This document shows, in pieces, positions 17,183-51,426 of a stretch of DNA of 64,000 bases (the first letter of the stretch is position 1; each line of letters starts with the position of its first letter). The position numbers were made by a program, and so were the translations under genes. The notes under the pieces are model-generated. The model saw nothing but the letters and a program-made list of their open reading frames with translations. It was not told the origin of the DNA and ran no database searches. This stretch comes from Gemmatimonadota bacterium. GTDB lineage: Bacteria > ARS69. The stretch is taken from assembly GCA_030747075.1 (NCBI GenBank), contig JASLLL010000010.1:19679-83678 (forward strand), written 5' to 3'.

Positions 17183-20100
17183 ATGACCTTCGCTCCGCTG
17201 CGGGTTCACAGCCACCACTCGCTCTTGTGGGGCACCGCGTCGCCGCGGCGGCTCGTCGAAGCGGCAGCGGATCTGGGGTGCAAGACGCTTGCGCTGACGG
17301 ATCGGGACAGCGTCGCGGGGCTGGTGGAGTTTCTGGACGCCGCGGAGGAACACGGCGTGCGCGCGCTCGTGGGGGCGGAGATTACCGGAGAGCATCCCAT
17401 GCTTCTTCTGGCGCGGGACTCCTCGGGGTACGAGTCCATGTGCCGTGTCGTCACGGACCGGAAGACTGCCGCCGTATTCGACCCGGCGTCGTCGCTGGCC
17501 GAAGCCCCCGGTGGAGTGCATGTCGTGTGCGGGCGGCCGGACACGGCGCGTGCACTGGCGGATGTGGTGGAGCGGGGTTCGCTCTGGGTGGATCTCCCCG
17601 CGCGGGGAAGGCGGGGCATCGCGCCGGTCGCTCTGCGGCGCGCGGCCGTGCAGCTCGGAGTCGGGCTTGTCGCGACCGGTCGTGTGTCACTGGGCAGTTG
17701 CGCGGATGCGGGGGCGCATGCGGTTCTCCGCGCGTCGGCGGAGGGGCGTCTCGTGGGAGACAGCCCCCTTGCCGGGTATGCGCAAGGGGCGGATGTCCTC
17801 GGGCGGCCGGAGAGCATGGGTCGGGGCTGGGAAGACGCTCCGGACGCGCTTCTTGCGAACCGGCGCGTGGCCGATTCGTGTTCGGTGGAGCTTCGACGCG
17901 GCACGCCGGTCTTTCCGCGCGCTCCCATGCCTCGGGGAATCACTGCGGGAGAGCATCTCCGAAGCCGGTGTCTCGAAGGACTGCGCTCGCGCGGCGCGGC
18001 TCCGAACGGAGAGGTGCTGCGCCGTCTGAATCACGAACTGGATGTCATCGGGCGCCTGGGCTTTGCAGACTACTTTGTGATCGTGGGGGACATTGTGCGG
18101 GCGGCCCGCGCATCGGGCATCCCCACGGTCGGGCGTGGCTCCGGGGCCGGCTCGCTCGTGTCGTGGGCGCTGGGCATCACGAATGTGAACCCGCTGCGCT
18201 ACGGCCTGATGTTCGAGCGGTTTCTGCACGAGGGGCGGGCCGACTGCCCGGATCTGGACATCGACCTGTGCTGGAAGGGTCGGGATCGCGTCATTGATCA
18301 TGTGTACAGAACCTACGGGCGGGACCGGGTCGCCATGATCTCGACGCATGTGCTGTTCCACCCGCGTTCCGCCTTCCGCGAGGCGGCTCGTGCGCACGGG
18401 GTTCCCGTGGCGCGGGTGAACCGGCTTTCACGACTTCTGCCGTCCGCATGGGAAGATGGCGGGGTCGCGCGCGCCGTCCGTGCCGATCCCGCGCTGGCCC
18501 GCGCGTTCGGCGCGGAAGATCCGCAGATGGCGAAGGTGCTGGAGGTCGCGGACGCGCTGGAAGGGCTTCCGCGACACCTGGGGATTCACAGTGGCGGAAT
18601 CGTGATCGGGGACCGGCCGCTCGTCGCGTATACGGGAATGGAGCGTGCGTCGAAGGGGATCATCGTCACGCAATATGAGATGCGCTCGATTGAGCGCGTC
18701 GGCCTGGTGAAGATCGACCTTCTCGGGAACCGCGCTCTCTCCACATTGCGTGAGACCGCCGCGTTTGTGGAGCGCTCACGGGGAGTGCGCGTGGATCTCG
18801 ATCGCGTTCCGGACGGGCACGCGGGAGCGGCCCGCCTGCTTGGGGCGGGGGAGACACTGGGCGCGTTTCAGATCGAGTCCCCCGGAGTCCGGAACCTGCT
18901 TCGCCAGCTTCAGCCGGTGGACCTCGACGGGGTGATTGCGGCGCTGTCGCTCATTCGACCCGGCCCCGCCGGATCCGGCATGAAGGACCTCTACATTGCG
19001 CGGGCGCATGGAGAGACGCCCGTGACCTGGCACGACGGCCGCCTTCGCGCCGTCCTGGCCGAGAGCCACGGCATCCTCCTCTACGAAGAAGATGTGATTC
19101 GTGTCGCGTCCGTGATCGCGGGGATCAGCCCCGGAGACGCCGACGGGCTTCGCCGGGCCATCGCCCGGGCGGAGTCGGACCCGGAGCGGGACTCGCTGGG
19201 TCGCTGGTTTGTGGAGCGCGCCGTGCGAAACGGAACGGACCTCGCTGCCGCGCGCGCGGTGTGGAAGGAACTGGCACGGTTTGGCGCCTACGCCTTCTGC
19301 AAGGCGCACGCTGCCGGGTATGGTGTGCTGGCGTACCTGTCCGTCGTCATGAAGGCGGACTACCCGGTGGAGTTCACGGCCGCGCTTCTCAATCATCATC
19401 AGGGAATGTACCCGCTGCGCGTTCATGTGGAAGAGGCACGCCGACGCGGTGTGCGCATTCTGGGTCCCTGCGTGCAGCACTCTCAGGCGGGGGCTACCGT
19501 GGAAGACGGCAGCGTCCGCCTGGGGATCAGCGGGGTCGCGGGCGTGTCGGACCGAACCGTGCACGCGGTGGTCTCCATCGGTGAGCGTTCGGCGGAGCGC
19601 CGATACACGGGCATGGCGGACCTGCTCCGCCGCGCGCGTCCGTCTTTCCCGGAAGCGTCGGCCCTCGTGCGGTGCGGGGCGTGCGACGCATTCGGCGAGA
19701 ATCGATCCGTACTGGCATGGCGACTTCGGGCGTCATCCGGACGACGAACGAAGCGGCCGTCTCCGACCGCGCCCGGCCTGTTCGACGCGGCGTGCCCGGT
19801 ACTCCCGGATCGCGCACCAGATCTCCCGGCGCCCGATGTCCGGGAGCGGGCGGCCGCAGAAACCGAACTCCTGGGATTCCCGCTGGAAGCGCACGCGCTG
19901 GCCGCGTGCGCGCGCGAGCTTCGTCAAGAGGGGGTCACTGCCGCGGCGCGTCTTGCCGGGCGAGCCGGGCGGCGCGCACGAGTCGCGGGGATTCCGGCCA
20001 CACGGCGAACGGTGGCGGCGCGCGGCGGACGCCGGATGCTCTTCCTCACGCTGGAGGACGACACCGGTCTGGTGGAGTGCACGCTCTTTCCGGATGTGTA

Positions 20101-43129: not shown

Positions 43130-44158
43130 TCACTTCGTGCGTGGCGCGTCCTTCAGGAATGACTCCGCGTGTAGAACATCTTCCCGGCTTCCGATGAACA
43201 GCGGCACGCGCTGGTGGAGCGCCTCAGCCTGAATGTCCAGGACGCGCTCCGTTCCCGTGGAGGCGAGGCCGCCCGCCTGTTCCGCGATGAACGCCATGGG
43301 TGCCGCCTCATAGAGCAGGCGGAGCTTCCCTCGCGGGGGGGCATCGGGGCGCTTCCGGTCCATCGGGTAGGCGAAGATCCCGCCCTTGAACAGCGTGCGG
43401 TGGAAGTCCGCCACGAGCGATCCGATGTACCGGTGCGAGTATGGGCGACCCTCGGACGGGGCATCTCGCTTGAGATCCTCCAGCCAGTTTCGAGTCTCTT
43501 CCGACCAGTACGCGGCGTTGCCCTCGTTGATGCTGTAGATCTTCCCCCGATCCGGCATGCGGATGTCTTCGTGCGACAGAAGGAACTCCCCGACCGATGG
43601 ATCCAGCGTGAACCCGTGGGCGCCGTCCCCTGCAGTGTAAACGAGCATCGTGGAAGCTCCGTAGAGGATATACCCGCCCGCGATCTGTTCGCTTCCCTTG
43701 CGGAGGATGTCCGAAGCCTGCCCGACCGGACCGTGGGTCACTCGGCGATGGATGGACCAGATGGTGCCGATGGACACATTCACATCGATGTTGGATGAAC
43801 CGTCCAGCGGGTCAATGGCCACCGCATACTTCCCCGGGCGGTCCTTCCGGGAGGTGTTCGGGAGGATGATGTCCTCGTTCTCCTCCGACGCGATCACCGC
43901 CACGAAACAGTCCTGTCCGAGTGCGCGGATGAACTGCTCGTTCGCGTAGATGTCCAGCTTCTGGACCTGTTCGCCCTGAACATTGGTTTCGCCCGTGGCA
44001 CCGAGGATGTCGATGAGACCGGCTTTGTTCACTTCGCGGCTCACGATCTTCGCGGCCAGGACGATCTGGTTGAGGATTTCGGTGAACTCTCCCGTCGCCT
44101 CCGGGTGGAGCTTCTGCTCCTCCAGAATGAAACGGTTGCAGGTGATTCCCTTGCGCAT
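43130..44158 (-). CDS. fbp: Class I fructose-1,6-bisphosphatase
   Basis: Gluconeogenic phosphatase of 342 residues. Metal-binding motif AIDPLDGSSNIDVNVSIGT, preceding ASEENEDI, and C-terminal GKLRLLYEAAPMAFIAEQAGG are diagnostic of type I FBPase. The ATG at 44158 has GGAG upstream and opens RKGITCNRFI, the usual N-terminus; upstream in-frame codons are non-conserved. It is divergent from the class II aldolase with which it acts in sequence, and each has its own candidate promoter in the 153-base gap. Confidence 0.95.
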   Translation of the reverse strand: MRKGITCNRFILEEQKLHPEATGEFTEILNQIVLAAKIVSREVNKAGLIDILGATGETNVQGEQVQKLDIYANEQFIRALGQDCFVAVIASEENEDIILPNTSRKDRPGKYAVAIDPLDGSSNIDVNVSIGTIWSIHRRVTHGPVGQASDILRKGSEQIAGGYILYGASTMLVYTAGDGAHGFTLDPSVGEFLLSHEDIRMPDRGKIYSINEGNAAYWSEETRNWLEDLKRDAPSEGRPYSHRYIGSLVADFHRTLFKGGIFAYPMDRKRPDAPPRGKLRLLYEAAPMAFIAEQAGGLASTGTERVLDIQAEALHQRVPLFIGSREDVLHAESFLKDAPRTK

Positions 44159-44202
44159 GATCTCCGGTCCCGGTGGAGGTGGCTCTCCAGATCCCGCACC
44201 GC

Positions 44203-44231
44203 ATGATAGAGGGAGAGTCACAGGCACTCAA
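44203..44231 (-). promoter_or_regulatory. Candidate promoter of fbp-glgC-mmgE
   Basis: On the minus strand TTGAGT (44231-44226), a 17-base spacer and TATCAT (44208-44203) match consensus well (four and five of six). The start of transcription would be about 40 bases before the fbp ATG. Confidence 0.55.
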
Positions 44232-44240
44232 CTGTGCCGT

Positions 44241-44269
44241 TTGACGCGCCCCCCGTCCACGGGATACCT
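44241..44269 (+). promoter_or_regulatory. Candidate promoter of the class II aldolase gene
   Basis: TTGACG (44241-44246) followed after 16-18 bases by GATACC/ATACCT/TACCTT (44263-44270). The -35 is strong and the -10 weak. It lies ten bases from the divergent fbp promoter, so one regulator could control both. Confidence 0.4.
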
Positions 44270-44311
44270 TGGTCCCCGTTTTCGAACTGTCGACCGAACC
44301 TGGAGGACCTC

Positions 44312-45715
44312 ATGTACTTCGCTTCCACAGAAGAAATGATCGGCGCTCTGTCGGGTGTCTTGAGCTTTTCGAACGGCGATTGCGCCATTCTGGACGAAGA
44401 TGCGCTGCGGGGTGACGGGATCGACCGCCTCGTCCATACGGCCGTTTTCGCGGAGGAGGAGAGCGTTCGAGATGGGGCACGATGGCTCATCCGCCGCGTC
44501 GCGGAGACGGACGGGTGCCCGCCCGCATCGATCCATGAGTTCTATGTGGCACGCTCCACCGGCGCGTACCCGAATGTCACGGTTCCGGCCATCAACCTGC
44601 GCGGCATGACCTACGACATGGCCCGCGCGCTCTTCCGGGCGGCGGCCGCCAACGATGCGGGTGCGGTGATCTGCGAAATCGCGAGAAGCGAGATCGGCTA
44701 CACCCGCCAGCGGCCGGCCGAGTACACGGCGGTGGTTCTGGGCGCGGCGATCAAGGAGTCCTTCCATTCGCCGGTGTTCATCCAGGGAGACCACTTTCAG
44801 GTGAAGGCCAAGAACTTCTTCGCGGACCCGGATCAGGAGATCGCGGCGGTCAAGGACATCATTGTGGAGGGCGTGGCCGGCGGGTTCTTCAACATCGATG
44901 TGGATGCATCCACGCTGGTGGATCTGGACCAGCCGACCGTTTCCGAACAGCAGTACAACAACTCGCACCGGTGTGCGGAACTCACCGCCAAGGTGCGCGA
45001 GGTGGAACCCGAAGGCGTGATCGTGTCGGTCGGAGGGGAGATCGGCGAAGTGGGCGGCAAGAACTCCACGGTGGAGGAGTTCCGGGCATTCATGGACGGG
45101 TTCAATCAGGAACTGGCCGCGCATGGAGAGGGCCTCGTCGGGCTGTCGAAAATCTCGATTCAGACCGGGACCGCGCACGGTGGCGTTCCGCTTCCGGACG
45201 GGACGATTGCGGATGTTCAACTGGATCTGGAGGCGCTGGAGTCCATCTCACGCGTAGCCCGCGACGAGTACGGGCAGGGCGGGGCGGTCCAGCATGGCGC
45301 GTCCACGCTTCCCGAAAGCGCATTCGGGCACTTCCCCCGGACGGAGACCACAGAGATCCATCTGGCGACCGGTTTCCAGAATCAGGTCTACGATGGCGGG
45401 CATCTTCCGAAGGATCTCGTGGACAAGGTCCATGACTGGCTGCGCGAGAACTGCGCGGGAGAGCGCAAGGAGGGAGACTCCGAGACGCAGTTCCTCTACA
45501 AGACGCGCAAGAAGGGATTCGGTCCGTTCAAGGCCGAGTTCTGGGGATTGCCCGAGTCGGTACGAGAGGCCATCGGGAAGGATCTGGAGGAGAAGTTTGA
45601 CTTCTACATGAAGATCCTCCGCGTTGAGGGAACCCGGAAGGCCATTGCGGAGTGTGTGACCGTGCCGCCGACGGCGGGACCGCCTCCGGAGTCGCTCGGA
45701 TCTCTCGTCGGCTAG
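44312..45715 (+). CDS. Class II fructose-bisphosphate aldolase, long form
   Basis: Zinc aldolase family protein of 467 residues, about 120 longer than the common E. coli form. Family residues appear as D-H in VFIQGDHFQV, E in SVGGEIGEVGG, H in QTGTAHGGVPLPDG and H/N in FGHFPRTETTEIHLATGFQN. The C-terminal ~110 residues (from about EKDLVDKV... to PPPESLGSLVG) are an extension rich in charged helices. TGGAGG precedes the ATG at 44312. Divergent from fbp. The natural substrate may be fructose 1,6-bisphosphate or a related sugar. The stop overlaps nth by four bases, tail to tail. Confidence 0.87.
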   Translation: MYFASTEEMIGALSGVLSFSNGDCAILDEDALRGDGIDRLVHTAVFAEEESVRDGARWLIRRVAETDGCPPASIHEFYVARSTGAYPNVTVPAINLRGMTYDMARALFRAAAANDAGAVICEIARSEIGYTRQRPAEYTAVVLGAAIKESFHSPVFIQGDHFQVKAKNFFADPDQEIAAVKDIIVEGVAGGFFNIDVDASTLVDLDQPTVSEQQYNNSHRCAELTAKVREVEPEGVIVSVGGEIGEVGGKNSTVEEFRAFMDGFNQELAAHGEGLVGLSKISIQTGTAHGGVPLPDGTIADVQLDLEALESISRVARDEYGQGGAVQHGASTLPESAFGHFPRTETTEIHLATGFQNQVYDGGHLPKDLVDKVHDWLRENCAGERKEGDSETQFLYKTRKKGFGPFKAEFWGLPESVREAIGKDLEEKFDFYMKILRVEGTRKAIAECVTVPPTAGPPPESLGSLVG

Positions 45716-46410
45716 TCCGCTGAAGGGCACTTCCCCCGCACGGGACAGGTCTCGCAGCGCGGGCTGCGCGCGGGGCAGTGCTTCCGGCCGTGGTGGATCA
45801 GGAGGTGAGACGCTTCCGTCCACCACGCCTCGGGGAGGATCGCGCACAGGTCGGCCTCAATCCGCACCGGATCGGACTTCCGACTGAAGCCGAGGCGGTT
45901 CGACAGTCGCATCACATGAGTGTCCACCACCATCCCCGGGATACCGAACGCATTCCCGAGGATGACATTGGCTGTCTTCCGCCCGACCCCGGGGAGCGCG
46001 GTCAGTTCCTCCATGGTGCGGGGAACTATGCTGCCGTGGAGGGCGATGATCTCCCGGCTCATTCCGAGAATGTTGCGGGCCTTGTTCCGGAAGAAGCCGG
46101 TTGAGTGTACCTCCCGCTCCAGTTCGCGAATGTCCGCGCGGGCAAAGTCCTCCACCGACCGGTACTTCTCAAAGAGGTCACGCGTTACGATATTGACGCG
46201 CACATCGGTGCACTGCGCGGAGAGGATGGTGGCGACGAGAAGTTCGTGGGGAGTCCGATGCGTGAGTGCGCACTCCACATCGGGGAACTCCACGCGGAGC
46301 GCTTTCAGCACCGCGAGCGCACGCTTGCCTCGGGCCGGAGCGGACTCCACTCGTCTCATGCGCGTCACGGCGACACAAGGGTTTTGCGATCGGATGCGGG
46401 AACGAGCCAT
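45712..46410 (-). CDS. nth: Endonuclease III
   Basis: Base-excision repair glycosylase/AP lyase of 232 residues. The helix-hairpin-helix LPGVGRKTANVILG holds the catalytic lysine, VDTHVMRLSNR the catalytic aspartate, and the C-terminal C-x6-C-x2-C-x5-C (CPARSPRCETCPVRGKC) the [4Fe-4S] cluster. The start is uncertain: ATG 46410 gives a 17-residue basic extension, ATG 46359 a more standard length, and neither has a clear ribosome site. It is a second DNA-repair client of the SUF system in this window. Confidence 0.94.
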   Translation of the reverse strand: MARSRIRSQNPCVAVTRMRRVESAPARGKRALAVLKALRVEFPDVECALTHRTPHELLVATILSAQCTDVRVNIVTRDLFEKYRSVEDFARADIRELEREVHSTGFFRNKARNILGMSREIIALHGSIVPRTMEELTALPGVGRKTANVILGNAFGIPGMVVDTHVMRLSNRLGFSRKSDPVRIEADLCAILPEAWWTEASHLLIHHGRKHCPARSPRCETCPVRGKCPSAD

Positions 46411-46431
46411 GTGCGCGGGAAGGGGGGCAGC

Positions 46432-46887
46432 CTACTTCTTCGGGAGGGCATACCGGAAGAACGCCTTCACCGAACCCCAGGAGGTGCTGATGAGAGGCTC
46501 ATCAACGCCGGTGTCTCCGCCCACCCGAACCGAGCCGAACATTCCCTCGAACTCGTAGGGCGGACTGAAGAACTCGTACACGCCCGTGTCCTGGAAGGTG
46601 TGCTCATACCAGTCCGCGTAGGCGACCGTGGTGGAACTCCAGGCATCTCCGGCCAGAGGATCTGCGCTGCCCGTGCCACTCATCACGGAGTGGTCCACAA
46701 ACGACGGGTCCGAGTTGATCCATCGGACCGTGTCTCCGGGCTGGATCTGAATGGCGGCCGGGACGAACCGGGGCTCATAATCCACAGAGGTCATCTGGAC
46801 GATGTGAACTTCCGCTGCGGCGACGCCCACGGACAAGAGTCCGACAAGAAGAGCGGCCGACAAGATCAGCTTGCGATGCGCGATCAT
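46432..46887 (-). CDS. Cupredoxin-fold exported protein lacking type 1 copper ligands
   Basis: Exported protein of 151 residues with a signal peptide ending near VAAAEV. GGAGG lies seven bases before the ATG at 46887. The plastocyanin/pseudoazurin-like pattern is seen: RFVPAAIQIQPGDTVRWIN, the first histidine H66 in VDHSV, and the C-terminal YEFFSPPYEFEGMFGSVRV. Where copper proteins have C-x2-H here are S108 and Y111; only H66 and M116 remain, and there is no cysteine at all. So copper binding of the blue type is unlikely. It may be structural or bind another ligand. A short tail follows the fold. Confidence 0.8.
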   Translation of the reverse strand: MIAHRKLILSAALLVGLLSVGVAAAEVHIVQMTSVDYEPRFVPAAIQIQPGDTVRWINSDPSFVDHSVMSGTGSADPLAGDAWSSTTVAYADWYEHTFQDTGVYEFFSPPYEFEGMFGSVRVGGDTGVDEPLISTSWGSVKAFFRYALPKK

Positions 46888-46937
46888 GATGAACCTCCGC
46901 CTGATGATCCCCGAGTGGACCATCCGCAGCTGAGTTC

Positions 46938-46967
46938 ATGGTAGCACCCGACAGGGGGAGGGGTCAA
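46938..46967 (-). promoter_or_regulatory. Candidate promoter of the cupredoxin-like gene
   Basis: On the minus strand TTGACC (46967-46962), 18 bases and TACCAT (46943-46938), about 50 bases before the ATG. The -35 overlaps the last codons of the HAD gene, so the cupredoxin-like gene can be transcribed on its own. Confidence 0.5.
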
Positions 46968-47653
46968 CGGGAGTGAAAGGACGCAAGTTCGAGAACCTCG
47001 CGTGCCCGGGGGTCTTCCAGAGTCGGGACGGTCCAGTCCGCGCCCGCTTCTTCCAGCGTCTCCATCGACGCGTTGCCTGTCGCAACAGCCAGACAGCGAG
47101 CCCCGGCCTCGTGAGCCGCGTGGACATCGTGGATGGTATCGCCGACCACCACCACCGGGACTGCCGCTCCGGCGCGCTCCCGGCCGCGACTCACCGCAAT
47201 GCGGGTGAGTTCGGGGCGACTCTCGCTGTCGGAACCGAAGCCGCCCAGGTCGAAGAAACCGTCGAGCTGACCGGGCCGGAGCTTGGCGTACGCGGCGACT
47301 TCGTAGTTTCCCGTTGCGAGCCCCAGGACCACAGCCGGGTCTTCGGCCAGATCGGCCACCAGCGAGTGTGCTCCGGAAAGAACCTGATAGCCGGGTGGAT
47401 CGCGCAGGAACTCCTGCAGGTGAACGAGGTAGCGTTTGGTGATCTCGGCCATGCGCGCGTCGTCGGGATCCGGGCCGAGACACTTCTTCGCGATTTCGCG
47501 AACGATGGCGGGATCGGTTCGACCGTGGAAGGCGATCCCCTCGACCGCATCCTCCAGGTCGAACATCTCGTGAAACACCTTGCGAAGGGAGCGAAGTCCG
47601 GCCCCGCCGGAGTGGATGAGCGTGCCGTCGATATCGAACAGGATCAGGCGCAC
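46964..47653 (-). CDS. HAD-family hydrolase (phosphoglycolate phosphatase-like)
   Basis: Phosphatase of 229 residues. HAD motif I LFDIDGTLIHSGG (nucleophile D7 and D9), motif II in LGLATGN, a lysine in YAKLRPGQL and motif IV VVVVGDTIHDVHAA are all present; the alpha-helical cap between motifs I and II is of subclass I, as in Gph and PgmB. Likely acts on a small phosphorylated metabolite. The ATG at 47653 is followed by a gap of 190 bases to the divergent membrane operon. Confidence 0.88.
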   Translation of the reverse strand: MRLILFDIDGTLIHSGGAGLRSLRKVFHEMFDLEDAVEGIAFHGRTDPAIVREIAKKCLGPDPDDARMAEITKRYLVHLQEFLRDPPGYQVLSGAHSLVADLAEDPAVVLGLATGNYEVAAYAKLRPGQLDGFFDLGGFGSDSESRPELTRIAVSRGRERAGAAVPVVVVGDTIHDVHAAHEAGARCLAVATGNASMETLEEAGADWTVPTLEDPRAREVLELASFHSR

Positions 47654-47844
47654 AGTGGCTCCCGTGGATGCGAGGGGTAGAGGCGCAACGGCCGGGCAGA
47701 GTGCCAGACACGGCGCCAGGCGTCAATCCGAAGCGGGAATGCCGCTTGACAGTCAATGGGTGGAGAGGCACCGTCCGCCCCGGTGCCCGGTCCGGGTGAG
47801 GATCGGGCGGATTGAACGATCACCGGAGAATCTCGAGGGAGCGG

Positions 47845-49089
47845 ATGGACAGAATCCCAAGGCTCGCTTTGCTGCTCCTCCTGCTGTTCGCGGCGGCTGC
47901 GGTTTCGGCCGTGGCGCAGGAGTCCAACCCGGGAGAACTCCCCGGGGCGGATGCTGTTGAACCGGAAGCCATGGTGCCGCCTCCGGCCCCGCCGACCGGG
48001 GTTCATGCGGAGGACTTCCCGCACGATGCCGGAGAAGTGATCCGCGTCACCTGGACGACCTCCCCTGACGACGGGAACGCGGATGTTCTCGGGGGATATC
48101 GCGTACTTCGCTCTGTGGAGGGCGAGGCCTTCGAATCAGCGGGTGAAGTCGGTCCTGGAGAGTCCCTCTACACGGATGTCGGCGTTGACAACGGAGTAGC
48201 CTGCACTTATCGCGTGGTGGCATTTGGCCCGGGCGGAGAAGGGGAGTCGATGACCTCCGAACCCGCCGCCGCATCCGAGCAGTGGTTCTATCTCGACAGG
48301 TGGAATGTCGCTGTTGTGGCGTTCCTTGTCTGCGGGGCCATTCTCTACTACATCTACCGGGCAGCGTCCGGTGCGAAGCTCTATATCCGCAAGATCGCCG
48401 GAATGGACGCAGTCACCGAAGCGGTGGGGCGCGCCACGGAGATGGGCCAGCCGGTACTCTATGTGGCGGGTATCCAGGATATGGACAATGTTCAGACGGT
48501 TGCGGGGATCACCATCCTCGGAACCATTTCCCGGATGATCGCGGAGTACGAGACCAGCTTGCTGATGCCGACCAGTCGCTCGATTGTGATGAGCACTGCG
48601 CGGGAGACGGTCAAGGAGGCCTACCTGTCAGCCGGGCGTCCGGATGCCTACCGCGAAGAGAACATTTACTATGTGACGGATGAGCAATTCGGGTATGTCG
48701 CTCATGTGGATGGCGTCATGCTCCGGAAGAAGCCGGCGGCCTGTTTCTATCTCGGAGCCTTCTTCGCGGAGTCGCTCATTCTCGCCGAGACCGGCAACCA
48801 TATTGGAGCCATTCAGGTGGCGGGAACAGCCATGCCGACTCAGCTGCCGTTCTTCGTTGCGGCGTGTGATTACACTCTGATCGGAGAGGAGCTCTTTGCG
48901 GCCAGTGCTTACCTGTCCGGTGACGAGAAAATGCTCGGCTCTCTCAAGGGGTCCGACATGGGCAAGGTGCTGTCCGGAGTGTTCATTCTGGCGGGTTCGT
49001 TGTCCGTGACTCTGGCCAATGTGACCGGCAGCGGATTCCTGGCGAATGTTTCTTCCTGGCTCGACCGACTCTGGTCAGCGGCCCATTAG
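47845..49089 (+). CDS. Exported FnIII-like membrane protein, first gene of an unknown membrane operon
   Basis: 414 residues; GAGGGA precedes the ATG at 47845. Signal peptide (1-25, ending VSAVAQE), then a proline-rich linker, an FnIII-like domain at about 48-135 (GEVIRVTWTTSPDD, LGGYRVLRSVEG, CTYRVVAFGPGGEGE), one transmembrane helix at about 154-172, and a large conserved-looking domain at 175-370 (AEYETSLLMPTSRSIVMSTA, VAGTAMPTQLPFFVAACDYT), ending with a second hydrophobic stretch at ~375-395. From memory the last part resembles proteins annotated as DUF6754; I cannot check. Function unknown. Three further membrane genes follow. Confidence 0.75.
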   Translation: MDRIPRLALLLLLLFAAAAVSAVAQESNPGELPGADAVEPEAMVPPPAPPTGVHAEDFPHDAGEVIRVTWTTSPDDGNADVLGGYRVLRSVEGEAFESAGEVGPGESLYTDVGVDNGVACTYRVVAFGPGGEGESMTSEPAAASEQWFYLDRWNVAVVAFLVCGAILYYIYRAASGAKLYIRKIAGMDAVTEAVGRATEMGQPVLYVAGIQDMDNVQTVAGITILGTISRMIAEYETSLLMPTSRSIVMSTARETVKEAYLSAGRPDAYREENIYYVTDEQFGYVAHVDGVMLRKKPAACFYLGAFFAESLILAETGNHIGAIQVAGTAMPTQLPFFVAACDYTLIGEELFAASAYLSGDEKMLGSLKGSDMGKVLSGVFILAGSLSVTLANVTGSGFLANVSSWLDRLWSAAH

Positions 49090-49116
49090 TCCCGCCCGGG
49101 GCGAAAGGAGATCTCC

Positions 49117-49806
49117 TTGAAGCGCGGACTTCCAATCATGATCACGGCGGTGATCGGGGCGGTGTTGATCCTGTCCTTTTTCATCCCGCACACACCGTTC
49201 CGGCAGATGGAGGAGAGGATTCCGGTCTACTTCGACCTCATCGCCGCGTTCGCATTCATCCTGGGCGGGGGGAATCTCCTTCGCGTGCATCTGACCAGGA
49301 TCACTCAGAGAGGTACCGACTGGCTCTACTCTCTGGTGACCGTGGGCGGTTTCCTGCTCATGCTGGTGGTGGGACTTACCCGACTGCAACTGGGCGATGG
49401 CGGCCTGGGAGTCGCCGAGTCCTTTGATTCGGAAAACACCATCTACATGAAGATGTACCACTCGGTATTCGACCCTTGCCAATCGACCATGTTCTCGCTG
49501 CTGGCCTTCTTCGTCGCGTCCGCAAGCTACCGGGCGTTCCGTGCGAAGAACCTGGAGGCCACCATCCTCCTTCTGGCGGCTTTCGTGATTCTCCTGGGAC
49601 GGACCTTCATCGGTGAGGGAATGACCGCGTTCCTCGTTGGGACTCCGCTGGAGTTCCTCCACATCCCGAACCTGTCCAACTGGATTATGGCTGTCCCGAA
49701 TCTTGCCGGGCAGCGGACCATCATGATTGGGATTTCACTCGGGATTGTCTCCACTTCGCTCCGGCTGATCCTCGGCATTGAGCGTGCGCACCTGGGGGGT
49801 GACTAG
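49117..49806 (+). CDS. Unknown integral membrane protein, second gene of the operon
   Basis: 229 residues from a TTG start with GGAG upstream. About six hydrophobic helices, with a soluble loop between helices 3 and 4 (GDGGLGVAESFDSENTIYMK). Conserved-looking charged spots inside the membrane are R in RVHLTRITQRG and E in TFIGEGMTAFLVG. No transporter or enzyme motif recognised. It starts 27 bases after the FnIII-like gene and ends 3 bases before the next, so the order is fixed in one transcript. Confidence 0.72.
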   Translation: MKRGLPIMITAVIGAVLILSFFIPHTPFRQMEERIPVYFDLIAAFAFILGGGNLLRVHLTRITQRGTDWLYSLVTVGGFLLMLVVGLTRLQLGDGGLGVAESFDSENTIYMKMYHSVFDPCQSTMFSLLAFFVASASYRAFRAKNLEATILLLAAFVILLGRTFIGEGMTAFLVGTPLEFLHIPNLSNWIMAVPNLAGQRTIMIGISLGIVSTSLRLILGIERAHLGGD

Positions 49807-49809
49807 ACC

Positions 49810-50688
49810 ATGTTGGCCTTCCTGGAAAAACTCGGGTCGCTGGACCGTCGGCTGATCTTTGTGGCCATCGCGCTGACCGTCGCCATTCCTCTGGCGATGA
49901 AGCGTCCCGCGCCGGTGGATCCCAGCCCGATCGTGCAGCGTCTGTACGACCATATCGACGCACTCCCTGCCGGTTCGCGGATGCTCCTTTCTCTGGACTA
50001 CGGTCCCAGCACACGCCCTGAGAACGAACCCATGGCGCATGCGCTGGCCCGTCATTGTCTGGAGAACGACCTCAAGCTGTACATCATGTCGTTGTGGGCG
50101 ACCGGTCCCCCCATGGCGACCATGCTGATGGACGATGTGATCGTTCCGGACTTCCCCGACAAGACCTACGGGGTCGACTATGTGAACCTGGGCTACAAGG
50201 TGGGGAACCAGGGGTTGATCCAGGCCTTGGGCTCGGACTTCAAAGGGCAGTACAACTCCGATACCGGGCATGGGGAGAGGGTGCCTTCGCGGCCCATCGA
50301 CGACATCCCGATGATGGCGAATGTGGGGGTCATCGCGGACATGGCGATGATTCTCGGAATCGGTTCCGGGTCCCCCGGACTCAAGGAGTGGGTCCAGTTT
50401 GCGGGAGATACGGAGGGCGTGACCATCGGTGGCGGGGTGACCGCCGTGGAGGCGCCGCTTCTGTACCCCTACTATCCGAAGCAGTTGATCGGTCTGATGG
50501 GCGGGCTTCAGGGGGCCGCCGAGTATGAGGCGGCGCTCATGACCGGCAAACCCCGCTTCGCAGACACCGCGACCACGGCCATGATCCGTATGTTCCCCCA
50601 GACGGTGGCGCACGTTGTGATCGTGCTCTTCGTTGTTCTCGGGAACATTTCCTACTTCGCAACCAAGCGCCGCGAGCGCAGATTCTAG
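49810..50688 (+). CDS. Unknown membrane-anchored protein, third gene of the operon
   Basis: 292 residues with a helix near each end: residues ~14-30 (RLIFVAIALTVAIPLAM) and ~263-282 (TVAHVVIVLFVVLGNISYFA). Between them lies a soluble alpha/beta domain, probably outside the cytoplasm given the positive tail ATKRRERRF. It has Rossmann-like alternation (MLLSLDYGPSTRPENEPMAH, LKLYIMSLWATGPPMA, VGVIADMAMILGIGSG) and glycine-rich turns. I do not recognise the fold. It is three bases after the second gene and 13 before the fourth. Confidence 0.72.
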   Translation: MLAFLEKLGSLDRRLIFVAIALTVAIPLAMKRPAPVDPSPIVQRLYDHIDALPAGSRMLLSLDYGPSTRPENEPMAHALARHCLENDLKLYIMSLWATGPPMATMLMDDVIVPDFPDKTYGVDYVNLGYKVGNQGLIQALGSDFKGQYNSDTGHGERVPSRPIDDIPMMANVGVIADMAMILGIGSGSPGLKEWVQFAGDTEGVTIGGGVTAVEAPLLYPYYPKQLIGLMGGLQGAAEYEAALMTGKPRFADTATTAMIRMFPQTVAHVVIVLFVVLGNISYFATKRRERRF

Positions 50689-50701
50689 GAGGGAGAATCC
50701 A

Positions 50702-51391
50702 GTGGCATTCAGTGAACTCCTGGGTCTGTGGGTCGGAGCGCTTCTGACGCTGATGATCTTCAGCTTCCTTTACAAGGACAACCCGTTTTACAAGTTCGCC
50801 GAGCACCTGTTCGTGGGGGTGTCGGCGGCATTCTGGATGGTGCAGGGCTTCTGGGCTACGATCATGCCGAATCTCATCGCCCGGATTTTCCCGGCGCAGA
50901 TGGCGGACATGTACGAACAGGTTCGCGGACACGATCCGGATTACTTTTACCTGATTCCCGGCATTCTGGGGTTGATCCTCCTGACGCGGTTGATCACTCC
51001 GATCGCCTGGATGTCGCGCTGGGCCATGGCGTTTATCATCGGTTATACGGCGGGCACGAATCTCACGCGTTATCTGGCGTCCGACTTCATGGCGCAGGTG
51101 CACTCGACCATGTCGTTGCCGTTGATTGTCCAGACGAACGGTGTCTTCTCGCTGGGTGCTTCCCTGTCGAACATCCTGATCGTGGGAGGGGTGCTCTGCG
51201 GGCTGTCGTACTTCTTCTTCTCGAAGGAGCATACCGGCGCATTCGGCAAGGCGTCCCGCTTCGGTATCTGGGTGCTCATGGCGGCGTTCGGTGCCAGCTT
51301 CGGATACACGGTGATGGCCCGGATCTCGCTTCTCATCGGGAGGTTTGAGTATCTCGGGTCGTGGATTCAGCAGGGAATCCTGATGCAGTAG
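50702..51391 (+). CDS. Unknown integral membrane protein, fourth gene of the operon
   Basis: 229 residues, about six helices; the GTG at 50702 has GGAGGGAG eight bases upstream. Length and layout resemble the second gene of the operon, though similarity in sequence is faint by eye. Notable segments are YKFAEHLFVGVSAAFWMVQG, with a histidine and glutamate inside the first half, and TAGTNLTRYLASDFMAQVHS. A strong hairpin follows, so this closes the operon. Confidence 0.72.
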   Translation: MAFSELLGLWVGALLTLMIFSFLYKDNPFYKFAEHLFVGVSAAFWMVQGFWATIMPNLIARIFPAQMADMYEQVRGHDPDYFYLIPGILGLILLTRLITPIAWMSRWAMAFIIGYTAGTNLTRYLASDFMAQVHSTMSLPLIVQTNGVFSLGASLSNILIVGGVLCGLSYFFFSKEHTGAFGKASRFGIWVLMAAFGASFGYTVMARISLLIGRFEYLGSWIQQGILMQ

Positions 51392-51398
51392 CTTTGTC

Positions 51399-51426
51399 GG
51401 CGCGGACTTCCCGTGAGGTCCGCGCC
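51399..51426. terminator. Hairpin between the membrane operon and the glycosyltransferase
   Basis: GGCGCGGAC (51399-51407) pairs perfectly with GTCCGCGCC (51418-51426), loop of ten bases, eight bases after the operon stop. No T-run follows on either strand. It lies between convergent genes, so it could serve both. A weaker CCTTCC/GGAAGG hairpin follows and includes the stop of the minus-strand gene. Confidence 0.55.

Follow-up and report, generated by a model that had tools for sequence, protein, structure and literature searches.

A four-gene membrane-protein quartet carrying DUF6754 is conserved in fixed order across phyla and co-inherited with a MutL-family ATPase and a barrel-sandwich protein

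The window is the whole stretch of DNA analysed here, 64,000 nucleotides from a Gemmatimonadota bacterium (contig JASLLL010000010.1). Four consecutive genes, named A to D, occupy positions 47845-51391 of the window. The genes and features are as follows.

47654-47844, no strand: intergenic region 5' of A, 191 bases, divergent; a HAD-family gene starts at 47653
47845-49089, plus strand: gene A, 414 aa; signal peptide, FnIII, membrane helix, DUF6754, C-terminal membrane helix
47977-48279, plus strand: FnIII domain of A, about aa 45-145, by profile and fold
48274-49020, plus strand: DUF6754 domain of A, aa 144-392, by Pfam profile
49117-49806, plus strand: gene B, 229 aa, TTG start; membrane protein of about six helices with predicted N-in/C-in topology; no known family
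49810-50688, plus strand: gene C, 292 aa; Rossmann-like domain flanked by two membrane helices; no known family
50702-51391, plus strand: gene D, 229 aa, GTG start; membrane protein of about six helices with predicted N-out topology; no known family
51399-51426, no strand: hairpin 3' of D, 12-bp stem, 4-base loop, no T-run

The ORF calls confirmed the intergenic gaps of 27, 3 and 13 bases (A/B, B/C and C/D) given in the initial annotation, and the gap before A, given there as 190 bases, measured 191. No sigma-70-like promoter was found in this 191-base region by a promoter scan. The hairpin 3' of D sits between D and a convergent glycosyltransferase gene, and its folding gave -34.2 kcal/mol over a 66-nt stretch (z = -3.5). 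The stem and its stability agree with the strong closing hairpin described earlier, but the hairpin was absent from the list of the terminator scan. As it lacks a T-run, it is a putative terminator at most. In other genera of the family to which the genome belongs, relatives of the quartet retain the gene order at about 60-71% identity, which indicates that A, B, C and D are all real genes. Upstream, on the minus strand (43130-47653), lie genes for a HAD-type hydrolase, a copper-binding-type protein, an HhH-GPD glycosylase and a fructose-bisphosphatase. Relatives of these genes adjoin the same quartet in related genomes.

Protein A had been described as an exported FnIII-like protein with a large conserved-looking domain. 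The signal peptide and an FnIII domain supported by both sequence profile and fold agree with this, and the large domain proved to be Pfam family DUF6754 (PF20539; E = 6e-117, 389.8 bits against a curated cut-off of 27 bits), matched at aa 144-392 over positions 2-250 of the 257-position profile. In the AlphaFold2 model of A (pLDDT 91.7), FnIII is followed by a membrane helix (aa 150-174), a six-strand alpha/beta domain and a second, C-terminal membrane helix (aa 361-394). The FnIII domain is extracytoplasmic, and the second domain is on the opposite face of the membrane. The signal peptide and the positive-inside rule (K+R counts) predict that the DUF6754 domain is cytoplasmic. Fourteen charged or amide residues of this domain were invariant in 99 sequences, a pattern that a ligand site or a partner interface would be expected to show; the sole conserved cysteine of A was C341. 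In one class of quartets A has no FnIII, so the unit can do without it. When the model of A was compared with known structures, FnIII matches filled the list, and the PDB sequence search matched the FnIII part only. A PF20539 search of 14 control genomes gave no match, and DUF6754 was named in no paper within the searched open-access literature. A thus holds a full-length, high-scoring copy of DUF6754, whereas B, C, D and the ATPase link described below lie outside this family, to which Pfam assigns no function.

B and D had been read as six-helix proteins of 229 residues each. The lengths were correct, and hydropathy gave five clear membrane helices in each protein; the sixth in each was added by eye. 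Topology was predicted from the K and R residues close to the membrane, counted in 69-99 sequences per protein. The charge bias predicts N-in/C-in for B and N-out for D, and the case for D is weaker than those for A, B and C. D proteins of planctomycete type (L012 10589-11644, L030 12525-13586) carry an additional membrane helix at the N terminus, together with a periplasmic stretch; the added helix fits an N-out D. No invariant acidic residue pointing to ion-driven transport was found within a helix of B or D. R96 and R106 of D are conserved and lie near helix ends. No cysteine reached 90% conservation in B (69 sequences) or D (76 sequences), and none was conserved in C.

The description of C as a doubly anchored alpha/beta protein was upheld by its AlphaFold2 model (pLDDT 96.5), in which two membrane helices flank a Rossmann-like domain of six strands. 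Charge bias predicts that this domain is periplasmic. H268 and N279 of C are invariant and lie in the membrane helix that follows the domain. In structure comparison the best match for C was VIA (1kjn, Z 9.2, rmsd 3.8, 142 aligned), followed by TrkA (Z 8.8) and many at 7-8, and the best Foldseek match had E = 1e-3. When all relatives of B, C and D were searched against Pfam, the matches were scattered and weak. PDB searches by sequence gave no match for B or D and one chance-level match for C. The assignment of B to DUF4149 was rejected, with 13.5 bits against a cut-off of 24.6 and 5 of 55 relatives matching even at E 0.1. Between A and C, and between B and D, hhalign found no similarity with 9-sequence or deep profiles, whole or domain-cut. 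The helices and strands of the A and C domains nevertheless follow a like order in the models. The profile, PDB and structure searches matched none of the four proteins to a known complex, in keeping with the earlier reading that no motif for a known transporter, secretion or respiratory complex is visible.

A profile search of named genome contigs yielded 80 loci and confirmed at least 554 relatives. These 80 loci belong to Zixibacteria, Planctomycetes, WOR-3/Stahlbacteria, Fermentibacteria, Latescibacteria, Coatesbacteria, Neomarinimicrobiota, Acidobacteria and other groups. Over all loci together, 129 complete A-B-C-D quartets, often in tandem, were found in 90 loci from about ten phyla. 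No other order of A to D occurred among the 90 loci. The conserved order across phyla, which the initial annotation had named as support for a real system, was therefore found. Neighbour pairs in the loci were AB (136), BC (135), CD (133), DA (43, from tandem quartets), BB (8) and AA (2), and the eight BB pairs are probably split reading frames. Pairwise distances among A, B, C and D correlated with r of 0.74-0.85, compared with at most 0.09 in shuffles, and for all 129 quartets the nearest relative of A lay in another locus. Since the distances rise together and the nearest A is found elsewhere, the paralogues are ancient and each quartet travels as a unit. The search of plasmid records gave no match.

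The genome counts showed the same association. In raw counts that ignore relatedness, A was present in 98 of 294 Planctomycetota genomes and C in the identical 98, MutL in 94 of these 98 and 2 others, and BSH in 92 of the 98 and 1 other. The shared 98 genomes contradict a scattered, never-together occurrence, which the initial annotation had set against its reading. In the Planctomycetota genomes G034, G094, G180 and G200, A and C were both kept although 2-3 Mb of the same contig separates them; their co-occurrence thus goes beyond operon linkage. In Zixibacteria, again with relatedness ignored, all 60 genomes carried A in two to six copies, and 58 of the 60 carried MutL, usually as a single gene. 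A occurred without detected MutL in 4 of 98 Planctomycetota and 2 of 60 Zixibacteria genomes, which may reflect incomplete assembly. All five sampled genomes of the window's own phylum had two A and one MutL. Overall, quartets number one to six per genome and MutL is usually single.

The window copy is the second quartet of its genome. The MutL-BSH set is encoded on another contig (C7), where an eight-gene operon has the order E-F-MutL-BSH-A-B-C-D. The genes for MutL and BSH are often directly 5' of a quartet, with E and F before them; this upstream order recurs, with E in 16 loci and F in 26. E is a small membrane protein with a bacterial-PH-like relative, and F is a protein of about 110 aa. 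MutL matched the GlmL/MutL family (PF13941) with E = 1e-128 and 429.9 bits against a cut-off of 27, and it is very highly conserved, with 59-83% identity across phyla. It is assigned, by family alone, as an ASKHA ATPase with putative ATP hydrolysis. Its scores were below the cut-offs of the three NCBIfam models for GlmL (NF040745, 235.3 of 475 bits; NF040744, 221.8 of 600 bits; TIGR01319, 172.3 of 204.05 bits), so the name GlmL is unsuitable. None of the MutL neighbours looked mutase-like, either by eye in a few loci or by clustering in all loci, and the PDB search by sequence gave no match for MutL. BSH is a barrel-sandwich/KOW protein. Its match to RnfC_N (E = 0.001, 19.4 bits) was under the cut-off of 25.6, and its sequence matches in the PDB were weak ones only, to the KOW regions of RNA polymerase beta' and SPT5. 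The genomes G342, G354, G356, G367 and G083 contain another frame of the MutL family, which is much longer (839-982 aa).

The fixed order of A to D, their co-inheritance with each other and with MutL and BSH, and the domains of the four proteins are computational results, whereas the topology is predicted. The earlier view of the four genes as one membrane complex of unknown function gains support from this order and co-occurrence, and we infer physical assembly into one complex. We tentatively believe, with the chances a little short of even, that these genes belong to a conserved and apparently undescribed machine of the inner membrane, with A-B-C-D as its integral-membrane unit and MutL and BSH as its cytosolic partners. 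GlmL has been described as a reactivation chaperone for glutamate mutase (PMC4682846). By analogy with this activity, and given the invariant DUF6754 residues, the ATPase would most likely reset or drive A, coupled to C across the membrane. In such a machine, MutL would bind the DUF6754 domain through BSH and ATP would be used to reset or drive the domain; the change could then reach the C domain in the periplasm by way of B and D, and a ligand or cofactor might be exchanged or carried across the membrane. One MutL-BSH set would usually serve one to six paralogous quartets, which may differ in ligand or place, and the window quartet would use the set from the other contig of its genome. It is possible, and we hold it with less confidence still, that ATP-driven inner-membrane machines of a new class are represented here: a GlmL/MutL-like ASKHA ATPase, together with a barrel-sandwich adaptor, would power or reset several paralogous quartets whose Rossmann-like domains lie on both membrane faces.

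Other explanations of the same data were considered. The quartet might be a membrane-bound enzyme, in which A and perhaps C bind a cofactor, MutL-BSH is merely a repair chaperone and nothing passes through the membrane. The description of the GlmL/MutL family as a reactivation chaperone (PMC4682846) speaks for this, the 14 invariant charged or amide residues of DUF6754 suggest a catalytic or binding site, and C has a Rossmann-like fold. However, the FnIII domain, the periplasmic domain of C and the two multi-helix proteins would be left unexplained, and sequence and structure searches found no cofactor motif or solved relative, so we regard an enzyme as unlikely, though worth keeping in mind. 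The same proteins could instead form an envelope scaffold or signalling complex. Such an assembly would organise the inner membrane or connect the periplasm with the cytosol, and MutL would act as its actin-like switch. The ASKHA fold family, the extracytoplasmic FnIII and the many paralogous quartets per genome are consistent with such a role, and DUF4388-like and roadblock-like genes were noticed by eye downstream in two WOR-3-type loci. Against it, FnIII is missing from one quartet class, the extra neighbour genes are limited to one lineage, and the residue conservation of DUF6754 is deeper than a scaffold requires; we consider this role quite unlikely.

RnfA and RnfE form a pair of equal-sized six-helix proteins of opposite topology. 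B and D are likewise equal-sized, six-helix and predicted to be of opposite topology, and BSH is weakly like RnfC_N (E = 0.001, under the curated cut-off). A redox-driven Rnf/Nqr-type ion pump in which BSH took the part of RnfC, and B and D those of RnfA and RnfE, is nevertheless highly improbable: B, C and D have no conserved cysteine and A only C341, and neither a motif nor a family match pointing to FMN, iron-sulphur or quinone turned up. That the four genes are chance neighbours with no common function has nothing in its favour beyond the absence of a known function, and it is hardly credible when 129 quartets from about ten phyla share a fixed order and A and C occupy identical sets of genomes.

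Returning to the proposed ATP-driven machine, its likeness to known systems is partial. The co-inherited ATPase belongs to the same Pfam family as GlmL (PF13941), but it is about 120 residues longer and under all three NCBIfam cut-offs, and its gene lies beside membrane genes, whereas that of GlmL lies beside a B12-dependent mutase. A barrel-sandwich protein with two equal-sized six-helix proteins is shared with Rnf/Nqr; in contrast, B and D are without conserved cysteines, RnfC_N is below its cut-off, and no other Rnf/Nqr subunit was found. ECF-type transporters resemble it in layout only, with a single ATPase module for several membrane units; the ATPase here is of the ASKHA type, and no ABC-type ATPase or ECF family was found in A-D, MutL or BSH.

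No description of the system was found in the searched open-access literature, and the databases searched give no function. The novelty apparently lies in the system as a whole, as two of its families are already in Pfam. Beyond what the initial annotation could read from the letters, the analysis adds a named Pfam family in A, a second quartet, and MutL and BSH encoded elsewhere. The finding is larger than first stated: the system is widespread and two-sided, and the window holds its membrane side. DUF6754 and three nameless membrane families gain a shared context, and a GlmL-type ATPase is found away from its textbook partner. The system probably matters for the envelope in large uncultured groups, since it occurs in all sampled Zixibacteria, in up to six copies, and in a third of the sampled Planctomycetota. 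One ATPase with several membrane units gives clear interaction predictions and a testable question.

Recurrent flanking genes other than E, F, MutL and BSH were lineage-specific. In L105 (7512-9315) and L115 (6776-8573), two FnIII-less DUF6754 genes are adjacent and precede B, C and D; panC-, sugar nucleotidyltransferase- and metK-like genes lie near these pairs. In the Zixibacteria locus L034, a membrane protein gene (17656-18300) is placed between A and B of an FnIII-less quartet, and its product, with a His-rich loop, is perhaps a metal transporter. Genes read from the sequence as ExbB, two ExbD and a TonB-like protein lie 3' of the quartet in L069 (15242-18271) and L096 (16427-19146), which are WOR-3-type and Fermentibacteria-type loci. 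Tandem quartets in eleven loci, including L026 (17551-17865) and L058 (17597-18064), are followed by a small basic protein with the conserved sequence REYQRRYYQMHKEKAKEYQR.
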